The notes under the pieces are model-generated. The model was not told the origin of the DNA. It worked only from the letters and a program-made list of their open reading frames with translations, and did not search any database. The position numbers were made by a program, and so were the translations under genes. Below, one piece after another: positions 11,178 to 17,206 of a DNA stretch of 45,031 nucleotides. Within the stretch, counting starts at the first letter, position 1, and every line of letters starts with the position of its first letter. The DNA is from Planctomycetota bacterium (GTDB lineage Bacteria > Planctomycetota > B15-G4 > JADJEK01): contig JACQZJ010000079.1 in the NCBI GenBank assembly GCA_016213895.1, positions 1-45,031 of the forward strand. Reading direction: 5' to 3'.

Positions 11178-11407
11178 CTCGACACCTCTCGTGAACGGGG
11201 AGCGCGCCGCGCGGCCGGCACGGCGCCGGCCGGGCGCGCCGCGCTCTGACGTTCCAGCGTAGCGACCGCGGCGCCGCGCGGCGGGCTTTTCCGCCCCGAG
11301 CTCGCGCCCGCGGAACGTGCGCGCGGCCTTGCCGCCGGCCCTTGCCTCTGCTTGACTCGCTGGTCTATCGCCCTGCAAGCGGGGCGGCGCGCCGCCCTGG
11401 AGGGACC

Positions 11408-14320
11408 GTGAGAAAACCGCTGCGACTGCTCGCCTTGCTCCTCGCCGGCGCGGCGCTGGCGCCGCTCGCCCGCTCCCGGCAGGACGCCGCTGCGCCCGTA
11501 GCCGACGTCGAGGTCGCGCGCCAGGAGTTCGAGCGGGGACGCTGCCTGCAGGCCGCCGGCATCCTCGCCGAGGTCCTGGAGGCGGCCCCCGGCGACGCCG
11601 GCGCCAGGGTCCTGCTGCTGCGCGTGCACGTGGAGCGCGGGGCGTGGGCTGAGGCCGAGGCCATCGACCAGGACCTCGGCGAGCGCTTTCCCGAGGAGTG
11701 CCCCCTCGAGGTCCTGCTGGCGCGCGCCGACTACGCCTTCGCGCGCGGCCGCACGGCGCAGTCGGAGGCCCTGGGCTTGCGCACCGTCTCGGCCGACGCC
11801 GCGGACCTGCGCGCCCGCCACGTCGTGGCGCGCGCCCTGCTTGAGCGCGGCGAGCGCGAGGCAGCGCGCCGCTTCGTCGAGGAGTCTCTTGCGGGAAGGT
11901 CGCTCAAGGCGCTCGACTCCGACGGGCTCCTGGCCGCGGGCCGGCTCTACCTGACGAGCGGCCAGTGGGAAGAGGCCGCGCAGTGCTGCGCCTACGCCGA
12001 GCAGAAGCGCAAGCGCGAGGACCGGCCGACCACGGACATCCTCGTGCAGCTCGGCGACCTCTACCGGTTGGCGCACATCACCGGCGGCGACGACGTGCCG
12101 CGCGCCTTCTCGACCTACCGCGACGCGCTCGAGCAGAACCCCGCTCTCGTCGGGGCCAAGGTCGGGCGCGCTCTCGTCCATCTCTACGTCGGCGACACCT
12201 GGGACGCAGAGAAGGAGATCGACGAGGCGCTGGCCCTGAACCCCGCCAGCGTGGAGGCGCTCGCGGTGAAGGCCTGGTTCAAGGTCCTCGACGGCCAGCA
12301 GAGCGACGCGCTCGACCTGGTCGCGCGGGCGCTCGCGGTCAATCCCGCGGCCACGCAGGCGCTCGCCACGCGGGCGGCCGCCCTCTACCTGCTCAACCGG
12401 CGGGACGAGTGCCAGGCCGACGTCGCGCGCGTGCTCGCGCTCGATCCGACCTGGGGGGAGCTGTTCTTGACCATCGGCGACGCCCTCTCGCGCCACATGC
12501 GCTTCGCCGAGGCGGTCGAGTTCCACCGCCGCGCCATCGAGACCGATGCCGAGCTGCCCTTGGCGCACATCTCGCTCGGCCGCGACCTCTGCTTCCTCGG
12601 GCGCGAGCAGGAAGGGCGGGAAGCGCTGGAGCGCTCGCTCGAGCTGCATCCCTTTCCCCATCCCTGGCGCCACAACATGCTGCTCGTGCTGAAGAAGCTG
12701 GACCGCGAGTTCGTGGACGCGGGGAGCGGCGCCTTCCGCTTCCGCATCCACACCGACGAGAACCCGATCCTCGCGCCCCGGCTGCAGGAGGCCCTCGAGC
12801 ACGACGCGCGCGAGCTGGCGAAGAGGTACGGCTGGTCGCCGCCGGGAGAGGTGCTGATCGAGCTCCTGCCGGGCCACCGGGACTTCTCGGTGCGCTCCGT
12901 GGGCTTCGCCGGCCTGGGCGCGCTCGGCGCCTGCTTCGGCGACCTGGTGACGCTGCTCTCGCCGCGCTCGGAGCTGCGCCACGCGTTCCTCTGGCGCTGC
13001 ACGGCCCTGCACGAGCTGGCGCACGTCTTCACCCTGGGCCGCTCGCGCGGGCGCGTGCCGCGCTGGCTGACCGAGGGGCTGTCGGTCTACGAGGAGCGCC
13101 TGGCTGACCCGACCTGGGCGCGCGACCAGGAGCTGGAGCTGATCGACGCCTGCCGGAACGAGGATCTGATCGCGCTCGCCGATTTCAACGCCGCCTTCCG
13201 CGGGCCGCGCGTCCTGTTCGCCTACTACCAGGCCGGCCAGTTTGTGCAGTTCGTCGCCGAGCGGCGCGGGTTCGACAGAATCCTGGAGATGCTCGACTCC
13301 TACGCCGCGGACCTGGAGACGCCGGAGGTGGTGCAGAGGGTCTTCGCGTGCGCGCCCGAGGAGCTGGACGGGGAGTTCCGCGCCTGGGTGCTCGAGACCT
13401 GCGTGAACAGGTATGCGGTGCAGCCGACGTTCGGCGAGAAGAAGCGCGGCGAGCTGCGGCGCCGCCTGCGCGCGGACGAGCAGAACGTCGACCTGCTCGC
13501 GGACACGGCCTGGGCCTACTATCAGGCAGGCAAGCAGGTGGACGCGGACGTGTGGCTGGAGCGGGCGCTGGCCCTCGCGCCGGACCACGCGGGCGCCCTG
13601 CGCCTCGCCGCGTTCCGCGCCGTGGACCGCAAGCGTCCGGACCTGGCGAAGGAGAAGCTCGAGGCGCTGTTCCAGGCCGGCGGCCGCGAGTACCGCGCGG
13701 CCCTGCTGCTCGCGCACCTGCGCCGCGAGGAGCAGGACCTGGAAGGCGCGGAGGAAGCCCTGCTCATCGCGCGCGACTGCTTCCCGCGCGCCATCGGCCG
13801 CGGGAGCCCCTGGCTCGCACTCAACGAGGTGCGCGCGGCGCGCGGGGACATGGCAGGCGCGATGGAGGCGCTCATGGAGTACGCCGCTCTGGACGAGAAG
13901 GCGCTCCAGCCGCGCCTCGATCTGGCAGCCTGGTCCCTGCTGCACGAGGAGTGGGAAGCGGCGCTGCGCTTCCTGCGGGAGGCGGAGCAGATCGATCCGT
14001 TCATCTGCGAGATCCACGTGCAGAAGGGCGAGGCCCTGCGTGCGCTGGGGCGGCCGGCGGAGGCGATCTCCTCCCTGCGCGCCGCGTTGCTCGTTGACCC
14101 TCGTCTCGAGCCCGGCTACACTCCGCCCGCAGCGTCCGGCGCAGGCCCGGACGGGACCGAGGACGAGAGGCGGCGGCAGGCGGAGATCCTGGTCAGCATC
14201 GCCGAGATGGAGCATGAGGCCGGGGACGCGCCCGCGGCGCTCCGCGACCTTGCTCGGGCCCTGGAACTCGTGCCCGGCCTGCCGAGCGCGGAGGAGTTGG
14301 CGGCACGTCTGAACCCCTGA
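11408..14320 (+). CDS. Secreted TPR protein with internal gluzincin-type peptidase domain
   Basis: A 970-residue protein starting at GTG 11408 after GGAGGG, with a signal peptide (RKPLRLLALLLAGAALAPLA). Residues about 30-420 and 650-960 are tetratricopeptide-like helical repeats. Between them lies a metallopeptidase-like segment with HELAH (535-539) and, about 15 residues on, WLTEGLSVYEE, the second glutamate ligand of the peptidase MA/gluzincin type. The layout suggests an exported or periplasmic protease or scaffold. The substrate is unknown. It is the first gene of a run leading into dnaA-like, tmk and holB, but no functional link is evident. Confidence 0.8.
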   Translation: MRKPLRLLALLLAGAALAPLARSRQDAAAPVADVEVARQEFERGRCLQAAGILAEVLEAAPGDAGARVLLLRVHVERGAWAEAEAIDQDLGERFPEECPLEVLLARADYAFARGRTAQSEALGLRTVSADAADLRARHVVARALLERGEREAARRFVEESLAGRSLKALDSDGLLAAGRLYLTSGQWEEAAQCCAYAEQKRKREDRPTTDILVQLGDLYRLAHITGGDDVPRAFSTYRDALEQNPALVGAKVGRALVHLYVGDTWDAEKEIDEALALNPASVEALAVKAWFKVLDGQQSDALDLVARALAVNPAATQALATRAAALYLLNRRDECQADVARVLALDPTWGELFLTIGDALSRHMRFAEAVEFHRRAIETDAELPLAHISLGRDLCFLGREQEGREALERSLELHPFPHPWRHNMLLVLKKLDREFVDAGSGAFRFRIHTDENPILAPRLQEALEHDARELAKRYGWSPPGEVLIELLPGHRDFSVRSVGFAGLGALGACFGDLVTLLSPRSELRHAFLWRCTALHELAHVFTLGRSRGRVPRWLTEGLSVYEERLADPTWARDQELELIDACRNEDLIALADFNAAFRGPRVLFAYYQAGQFVQFVAERRGFDRILEMLDSYAADLETPEVVQRVFACAPEELDGEFRAWVLETCVNRYAVQPTFGEKKRGELRRRLRADEQNVDLLADTAWAYYQAGKQVDADVWLERALALAPDHAGALRLAAFRAVDRKRPDLAKEKLEALFQAGGREYRAALLLAHLRREEQDLEGAEEALLIARDCFPRAIGRGSPWLALNEVRAARGDMAGAMEALMEYAALDEKALQPRLDLAAWSLLHEEWEAALRFLREAEQIDPFICEIHVQKGEALRALGRPAEAISSLRAALLVDPRLEPGYTPPAASGAGPDGTEDERRRQAEILVSIAEMEHEAGDAPAALRDLARALELVPGLPSAEELAARLNP

Positions 14321-14367: not shown

Positions 14368-15690
14368 ATGAACCTGTTGGCCAGGGACCTGTGGCAGGAG
14401 GTGCAGAACGCCTTCCGTGCCGCCCGCGGCCCGGCGGTCGCCGGGCTCTGGCTGCAGCAGGCGCGCCCCCTGGGCTTCGTGCGCGGCGTGTTCACGCTCG
14501 GCGTGCCGAACGAGGTGGTGCGCGACTGGCTCGAGCACCGCTACTCCGCGGAGCTCGAGGGGATCTTCCGCCGGCTCACGGGCAGCGCCGTGCGGCTGCT
14601 CCTCAAGGTGGACGCGTCGCTCCCCGCGGCGGCGGAAGACGCCGCCGGCGCCAAGGGCGAGGAGAGCGGCGGCGCGGCGCCGGAGGCGGCCTTCGTCATC
14701 CGGCCGGAGAACCGCCTGGCGAGCGCCGCGCTGGCGCGCTTGCTCGACGATCCGGCCACGGGCAACCCGCTTTTCCTGTACGGCCCGCCGGGAGTGGGCA
14801 AGTCGGCGCTCGTGCGCCACCGCCTGATCCAGCACCAGGCGGAGCGCGGGGCGCGCACCACGATCAGCGTGACGGCCGACGCGTTCTCCGCCGGCCTGGT
14901 GTATGCCCTGCGCGAGAATCAGCTGCCCGCGTTCCGCGGCCGCATGCTGGCCGCGGAGGCGTTCGTGCTCGAGGAGGCGCACCGCCTGCGCGGCAAGACG
15001 CGCACTCAGCGCGAGTTCCTGTCGGTCCTGCAGTACCACGTGCTGCGCGGCCGGCCGGTGATCCTCACCAGCCGGCATCCGCCGAACGCCATCTTCCTCT
15101 TGGACGAGGGTCTGCGCTCCTACTTCCTCTCGGGCATCCTGCACCGCATCGCCGACTACTCGGTGCCCTCGCGCGCAGCCATCCTCGAGGCCGCCGCGGC
15201 GCGCTTCGCGCGCCCCGTGCCGGCGGAGACGATCGAGCGCGTCGCGCGGCGCGTCAACGGGCCGGTGAGCCGCCAGATCCACTTCCTGGAGAAGGCCGCC
15301 GCCTGCGCCGCGCTCGCGGAACGGCCCGCCACGCTCGAGTTCCTGGGCGGGCGCTTCCCCGAGCTGTCCGGCTCGAGCGAGGGCGAGGTCGACGTCGGCT
15401 CCCTGATCGCGCTCGCGGCTCGCGACTTCGGCTCCACGGCGGAGGACATCGCCTCGAACCGCAAGACGCGCTCGGCCGTGCTCGCGCGCCACGTCGTCGT
15501 CTACGTGGCGACGGTGGTCTTCAACCTCAAGGCGCGCCGGGTGATGCGGCACCTCGGCGGGCTCTCGCCCTCCACCACGGCGTACGCGCGGCGCCGGATC
15601 GAGGAGCGGCGCCGGGATGACCCGGTGTTCGACGCCCGCGTCCGGCGCCTGCTGGCCGAGCTCAAGACCGGCCAAAAGCTGCTCTTCTGA
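14368..15690 (+). CDS. Divergent DnaA-family replication initiator-like ATPase
   Basis: At 440 residues the DnaA order is kept: domain I (DLWQEVQNAF ... VPNEVVRDWLEHRY), an Ala-rich linker, an AAA+ core with Walker A GPPGVGKSA (about 139-147), Walker B FVLEEAHRLRGKTRTQREF (DnaA has ..DDI.FL.GKE.TQEEF), sensor 1 ILTSRHPPN and a C-terminal DNA-binding domain (NRKTRSAVLARH ... LGGLSPSTTAYARRRIEE). Key departures: the arginine finger position (SRF.WGL in DnaA) is SYFLSGI, so Arg is Tyr; and the DNA-contact motif GRDHTT is GLSPSTT. Start ATG 14368 follows GGGGGAG. No DnaA boxes were seen nearby. It may be the chromosomal DnaA of a divergent lineage or a paralog. Confidence 0.8.
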   Translation: MNLLARDLWQEVQNAFRAARGPAVAGLWLQQARPLGFVRGVFTLGVPNEVVRDWLEHRYSAELEGIFRRLTGSAVRLLLKVDASLPAAAEDAAGAKGEESGGAAPEAAFVIRPENRLASAALARLLDDPATGNPLFLYGPPGVGKSALVRHRLIQHQAERGARTTISVTADAFSAGLVYALRENQLPAFRGRMLAAEAFVLEEAHRLRGKTRTQREFLSVLQYHVLRGRPVILTSRHPPNAIFLLDEGLRSYFLSGILHRIADYSVPSRAAILEAAAARFARPVPAETIERVARRVNGPVSRQIHFLEKAAACAALAERPATLEFLGGRFPELSGSSEGEVDVGSLIALAARDFGSTAEDIASNRKTRSAVLARHVVVYVATVVFNLKARRVMRHLGGLSPSTTAYARRRIEERRRDDPVFDARVRRLLAELKTGQKLLF

Positions 15691-15738: not shown

Positions 15739-16235
15739 ATGTTCCTCGTGCTCGAAGGCATCGACGGCGGCGGCAAGACCACGCAGGCGCGGCTGCTCGC
15801 GGAGGAGATCAGGCGGCGCGGGCGCGAAGTGCTGCATGTCCACGAGCCGGGCGGCACGCCGCTCGGGGAGCGGATCCGGAGCGTGCTCCTCGCGTCCGAC
15901 CCAGTGCGTGGTGTGCGAACGCTACTACTACTCGACTCTCGCCTATCAGGGCTTCGGCCTGGCCGAGGACGTCCAGGCGCTGCGCGCGCTCTCGACCTGG
16001 GCCACGGCGGACCTGCAGCCGGACCGGGTGGTCGTCCTCGACCTCGATCCAGCCGCGGGCCTGGCGCGCGTGCACAGGAGCCGGGACCGCATCGAGGCGC
16101 GCGGCGCGGACTACCTGGGCCGCGTGCGCGCGGGCTTCCTCGGCCTGGCGCGCGAGGACGCGGCGCGCTTCCGCGTCGTGGACGCCTCCCTCTCCGCCCC
16201 GGAGGTGTTCCGGCGCATCCTGGAGGCGCTGGCCG

Positions 16236-16249
<14 letters not shown>
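15739..16249 (+). pseudogene. tmk: Thymidylate kinase, internally deleted and frameshifted
   Basis: Tmk phosphorylates dTMP and is normally essential. The N-terminal part reads MFLVLEGIDGGGKTTQARLL (P-loop) and HEPGGTPLGERIRSVLLASD up to about 15900. From about 15902 the family continues in the next frame: CVVCERYYYSTLAYQG, then the LID region RSRDRIEARGADYLGRVRAGF, to TGA 16249. About 30 residues expected between the parts (the AELLLF.A.RAQ...VI.PAL..G segment that binds dTMP) are missing. The two pieces give about 170 residues against the usual 205 or so. No translational trick restores missing sequence, so either the gene is broken or the assembly lost about 90-100 bases. It overlaps holB. 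Confidence 0.85.

Positions 16250-17206
<957 letters not shown>

Follow-up and report, generated by a model that had tools for sequence, protein, structure and literature searches.

The DnaA-derived AAA+ protein Hda carries its clamp motif at the N-terminus and needs an arginine finger of its own for its action. It is described as being homologous to domain III of DnaA (PMC5835720) and as requiring the clamp in order to act (PMC9690074), while for DnaA itself R285 of one molecule is described as touching the ATP of the neighbouring molecule (PMC6727663). Additional copies of dnaA have been reported from Ca. Kuenenia stuttgartiensis, which has three and in which the dnaN/gyrB-linked copy alone was taken, with GC skew, as marking the origin (PMC7709395), and from the Chlamydiae, with DnaA1 and DnaA3 (PMC4989314). 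The accessible portions of the open-access literature on DnaA paralogs, dnaA copies and origins in planctomycetes, and on DnaA1/DnaA2, contain no description of an operon-linked clade lacking the finger. Here we describe a member of such a clade, encoded in a Planctomycetota contig of which the window, that is the whole stretch of DNA analysed, covers 45,031 nucleotides. The protein belongs to an ancient, selected clade of Planctomycetota DnaA paralogs that works beside the canonical initiator.

A DnaA-family protein away from the origin

The gene and the domains of its product are as follows.

14368..15690, + strand: DnaA-family paralog, 440 residues plus stop (intact ORF; Pfam/TIGRFAM scores, alignment, AF2 and Foldseek)
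14368..14610, + strand: domain I (DnaA_N), residues 1-81; PF11638 at 30.8 bits, cut-off 24.6
14689..15321, + strand: domain III AAA+ (Bac_DnaA), residues 108-318; PF00308 at 74.5 bits, cut-off 23
15394..15669, + strand: domain IV helix-turn-helix, residues 343-434; PF08299 (Bac_DnaA_C) at 29.9 bits, just below the cut-off of 31.5

The DnaA domain order claimed in a first-pass annotation of this DNA holds, domains I, III and IV all being present in order with Bac_DnaA_C slightly under its cut-off. The full-length DnaA equivalog model TIGR00362 gives 170.5 bits, below its curated cut-off of 343.9, and the Hda model TIGR03420 gives 31.7 bits, below its cut-off of 194.8. An AF2 model has a confident DnaA-like fold (mean pLDDT 82.7), and when this was used in Foldseek the best matches were to DnaA (E 8.5e-19 against 8btg) with Hda appearing later among other AAA+ proteins. 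A contig search with the protein as query returned only three full relatives, all from MAGs, as well as weak matches to the HTH only in Alphaproteobacteria. Plasmids and phages yielded weak matches only, several annotated as dnaA and none covering 80% or more of the query.

A PF00308 search of the 5.5 Mb genome identified three places, on contigs C180, C120 and C139. The first of these is the canonical dnaA for which the earlier annotation had proposed a search; it has all of the motifs and scores 518 bits against TIGR00362. C120 carries the window gene. The match on C139 was considered as a possible Hda and rejected, being an IstB-type IS21 helper. No Hda (TIGR03420) was found over the cut-off in this genome; since the genome is only 95.5% complete, an Hda gene may have been missed. 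The proposal that the window gene is a regulatory paralog is upheld as far as paralogy goes (518 vs 170.5 bits), and its regulatory part is weighed below.

The complete DnaA domain order could also be read in favour of a non-canonical chromosomal initiator with an origin near 14.3 kb, as had been suggested. GC skew on C180, however, passes from negative to positive at ~4-5 kb, beside the canonical dnaA at 5.6-6.9 kb. In another genome of the same order (G012, contig C17) the cumulative skew minimum at ~60 kb is the site of the canonical dnaA (60.3-61.7 kb), and skew around the paralog is negative without a break across the surrounding 200 kb. This is the stronger result because the C180 stretch is short. 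The surroundings of the canonical gene in G006 gave a skew too noisy to use. In the window no reversal is seen at 14.3 kb and the gene is not placed at a GC-skew origin, as that of an initiator would be. With a canonical dnaA elsewhere at which the skew turns, and with skew unbroken across the paralog, the idea of an initiator fails in both the window genome and G012. The reported lack of DnaA boxes nearby is real, TTWTNCACA being absent from the whole 45 kb, but the missing box cluster is weak evidence against an initiator and says little about the paralog, because no such boxes were found around the canonical dnaA either. We are therefore very nearly certain that the window protein is a paralog and not the initiator, and an origin at this gene is highly improbable.

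The paralog lies within a conserved gene order.

11342..14320, + strand: TPR/Peptidase_MA_2 (PF13485) protein, opening the conserved gene order; start codon uncertain
15739..16249, + strand: tmk (thymidylate kinase), frame-disrupted near 15900, with the PF02223 halves in two frames
16236..17206, + strand: holB (clamp loader delta prime), frame-disrupted near 16823-16870; PF13177 at 147 bits

The tmk and holB context was rightly recognised at the outset, both genes being downstream of the paralog, yet both are frame-disrupted in this MAG. The tmk break is at 15899-15903 and the gene is ~98 bp shorter than at the congener locus L035; holB, which is disrupted relative to the same locus, contains at 16812-17058 a 47-bp direct repeat with copies at 16812 and 17012. 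Either assembly error or strain-level decay may account for these disruptions. In families f1 and f2 of the window's order the genes run TPR/peptidase-MA, DnaA-like, tmk, holB, though in G002 some of the neighbours are hidden by contig ends. Of these neighbours f3 showed only the TPR gene, tmk and holB not being seen near the paralog. The same gene order recurs in f6, f10, f19, f27, f36 and f48, and partially in f8 and f37, and TPR, tmk and holB neighbours were found beside none of the sampled canonical or other second dnaA copies. The TPR/Peptidase_MA_2 protein adjoins the paralog even in f3, without tmk and holB.

Selection on the clade and loss of initiator residues

Each of the 14 genomes in the window's order has the paralog, and 13 of them also show the canonical gene. 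Most of the 118 sampled Planctomycetota have two DnaA-like places, as found with a profile made from operon-type paralogs whose matches include canonical copies. The operon set has 26 members and spans at least nine families, with 14 from the order taken by sequence and 12 from outside it taken by their neighbours (that of G049 by holB alone). In a rapidly built tree of 108 rows, with long branches flagged by the program and the deep root unresolved, a single branch (SH-aLRT 97) sets this whole set apart and the window's order is a subclade within it (support 98). Given these limits of the tree, we infer that the duplication predates the order, and probably several families too. In G085 two near-identical DnaA-like genes (L222 and L223) lie on the same contig at a distance of ~0.5 Mb, one of them at its end, and represent either a recent duplication or an assembly artefact.

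Motif positions were read from an alignment to B. subtilis DnaA (8btg), with E. coli DnaA residue numbers placed on the B. subtilis sequence where we presume them to correspond.

14779..14811, + strand: Walker A YGPPGVGKSAL, Lys145 retained
14959..14982, + strand: Walker B AFVLEEAH, Glu202-Glu203 replacing Asp-Asp
15073..15075, + strand: Arg236 (SRH) in place of the sensor-1 Asp (D269); 13/14 members of the order have Arg here
15103..15138, + strand: box VII DEGLRSYFLSGI, R281 replaced by Gly248 and R285 (Arg finger) by Tyr252
15556..15579, + strand: recognition motif GGLSPSTT where DnaA has GGRDHTTV; SPS invariant in the order

Three of these departures had already been remarked upon and are borne out by the alignment: Y252 faces the SRF arginine of 8btg (RSYFLSGI vs RSRFEWGL), EE202-203 faces DD (LEEAH vs IDDIQ) and GGLSPSTT is aligned with the DNA-contact motif of the B. 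subtilis protein. Three more can be added, namely the Gly at the R281 equivalent, the change of D269 to Arg236, and the sensor-2 Arg (R334), which is Ser in the window protein. Two hallmarks of a DnaA initiator, the box VII Arg finger and the GRDHTT box contacts, are replaced here by Tyr252 (with Arg in one of the 14 order members) and GLSPSTT.

All 14 order paralogs have the Walker A Lys. The finger column contains Tyr in eight, His in three and Phe, Thr and Arg in one each, the Arg being that of L044, so that the finger is lost in 13/14. Sensor-1 Arg is found in 13/14 and sensor-2 Arg in 0/14, the D433 column is Ser and the H434 column Pro throughout, and in domain IV R368, R374 and H375 are invariant across the order along with SPS. 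Operon members from outside the order have finger Arg in 4/12 and Ser or Thr at the D433 column in 12/12. Finger Arg is present in 55/57 of the canonical DnaA set, of which a few rows may be misassigned because the non-operon copy most similar to B. subtilis DnaA was taken in each genome, and in 26/26 of the other (non-operon) second DnaAs. Finger loss therefore marks the operon clade, frequently though not universally, and not second DnaAs generally. This pattern of residue loss across the clade is consistent with the prediction that these proteins no longer oligomerise through the finger or recognise DnaA boxes. Among the other groups, the canonical DnaA of f3 (L093, L096, L097, L098) is divergent, with AASCAP in the sensor-1 region and LQARLSGAY in box VII, and retains RELEGA and GRDHTT. 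Non-operon second DnaAs such as L195, L199, L204 and L216 keep the finger and often have a changed RDH motif (NH, KH, SH), suggesting altered box recognition.

The loss of motifs, and the frame-disrupted tmk and holB downstream in this assembly, might be thought to indicate a decaying pseudogene. However, the frame is open in all 14 order genomes (one being cut by a contig end) and dN/dS between the window genome and its congener (G000 vs G001) is 0.29 for the paralog, compared with 0.18 for canonical dnaA. By part, dN/dS is 0.24 in domain I and 0.24 in domain III, the linker (domain II, 24 codons) being the only part with a value of ~1. Together with the invariant non-canonical residues and the distribution of the gene, this selection largely refutes decay, which we find scarcely credible. 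Nor are the motif changes a sequencing quirk, since the same residues recur in the congener, losses of the same kind are seen elsewhere in the order and dN/dS is 0.29. The retention of the HTH, with its invariant SPS, R368, R374 and H375, and the inclusion of tmk in the operon could instead point to a DnaA-derived transcriptional regulator in which the altered HTH reads a new site and ties operon or nucleotide-supply genes to replication. We consider this improbable, domain I, the AAA+ domain and the tail being likewise kept under selection and no candidate binding site having come to light incidentally.

The C-terminal tail

15670..15687, + strand: C-terminal tail GQKLLF, putative beta-clamp-binding motif, predicted disordered

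In the AF2 model residues 435-440 follow the last helix with low confidence, and the tail is predicted to be disordered. The tails of the 14 order members read GQ[KQ][LM]LF in f1, AQRD[LF]xW in f2 and GQRFLFG in f3, and Q436 is invariant in the order alignment, where identity to the window protein is just 28-37% for most members. Within the last nine residues, the pattern Qxx[LMF](x)[FW] occurs in 14/14 order members, 0/12 other operon members, 1/57 canonical DnaAs and 0/26 other second copies; because the pattern was defined after the tails had been seen, the count of 14/14 is descriptive and the argument rests on how these members differ from the other groups and on a comparison with DnaE. 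The DnaE proteins of the same genomes have motifs ~240 residues from their end, which we take to be where E. coli DnaE has its clamp motif. These read GQLTLF or GQLGLF in f1, QSSLF (GQSSLF), QSALF or QGALF in f2, and GQKQLF or GQGSLF in f3, and an ImuB-like ORF in the window genome has QGSLF. Set against the DnaE motif of its own lineage, the QxxLF peptide fits in f1 (GQKLLF) and f3 (GQRFLFG), with AQRDLxW of f2 a variant. The published consensus for the bacterial clamp motif is QL(S/D)LF, located C-terminally and with more variability possible (PMC9690074), and from this five-residue consensus the f2 tails deviate. That deviation, and the absence of the tail from operon members outside the order, mean that clamp binding by the tail cannot be universal in the clade. 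On balance we consider it rather likely that the C-terminal tail binds the DnaN sliding clamp.

A clamp-docked paralog could also be a fork-side loader or adaptor, with domain I bringing in the replicative helicase or other replisome components at restart or re-priming. In favour of this, domain I itself is conserved (PF11638 above its cut-off; dN/dS 0.24), the gene order is shared with the clamp-loader gene holB, and the equivalents of the ssDNA contacts V211 and R245 are retained in the window protein. In f3 and outside the order, however, the counterpart of R245 has been lost, and the V211 column is variable; we judge such a function unlikely, if a little less so than a transcriptional one.

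Possible restraint of DnaA and comparison with known systems

The loss of the parts for assembly and origin recognition, together with the presence of a clamp-like tail, suggests that the protein does not initiate replication but probably regulates it. Our overall reading, to which we would give an even chance, is of a clamp-tethered DnaA-family regulator that probably caps or restrains canonical DnaA, by a mechanism that we infer as follows. At active forks the tail would dock the paralog onto the sliding clamp, DnaN. The AAA+ domain, with a nucleotide pocket and without a finger, could then receive a finger from canonical DnaA at one face while presenting none at the other. As R285 contacts the ATP of the next DnaA, a protomer without the finger could accept that of its neighbour but could not extend the oligomer, and DnaA oligomers might in this manner be capped or disassembled by the paralog after initiation. 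This would follow the logic of Hda, that is replication-coupled restraint of DnaA, minus Hda-type finger catalysis; Hda-type action proper is doubtful for the paralog because the finger that Hda needs is absent. Against the overall reading stand the one order member with a finger Arg (L044) and f3, without tmk and holB nearby. That the paralog restrains canonical DnaA is a possibility that we rate at somewhat under even. More tentative still is the wider proposal of a phylum-level Planctomycetota paralog family, co-inherited with tmk and holB, that in the window's order acts as a clamp-recruited, finger-less cap independent of Hda.

No dedicated Hda was found in this genome, and the conserved paralog, with its clamp-like tail and its place in an operon with holB, offers a named candidate gene for the prevention of re-initiation in planctomycetes. 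If the proposal is true, it would be a second case of DnaA having been duplicated and converted into a clamp-linked partner. Multiple dnaA copies in planctomycetes were known already from Kuenenia; what is new here is the order-wide clamp-motif-like tail resembling the DnaE motifs of the same genomes. The tail, the conserved operon and the distribution across the phylum had all escaped the first-pass annotation.

The paralog and DnaA (TIGR00362; PDB 8btg, 1l8q, 2hcb) share the domain order I-III-IV, the fold, Walker A and a full-length alignment. Unlike DnaA, the paralog has no R281/R285, no sensor-2 Arg and no RDH contacts, has Arg for the sensor-1 Asp, ends in a clamp-motif-like tail, is located away from the origin and scores 170.5 vs 343.9 bits with TIGR00362. 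The extra copies in Kuenenia and the Chlamydiae resemble it, as far as copy number goes, in being DnaA-family genes besides the origin-linked one, whereas sampled non-operon second copies retain the finger (26/26). With Hda/HdaA (TIGR03420) it has in common a DnaA-derived AAA+ domain, a putative clamp peptide and coexistence with canonical DnaA, but it differs in that domains I and IV are present, the motif is C-terminal, the finger is absent and the score is 31.7 vs 194.8 bits.
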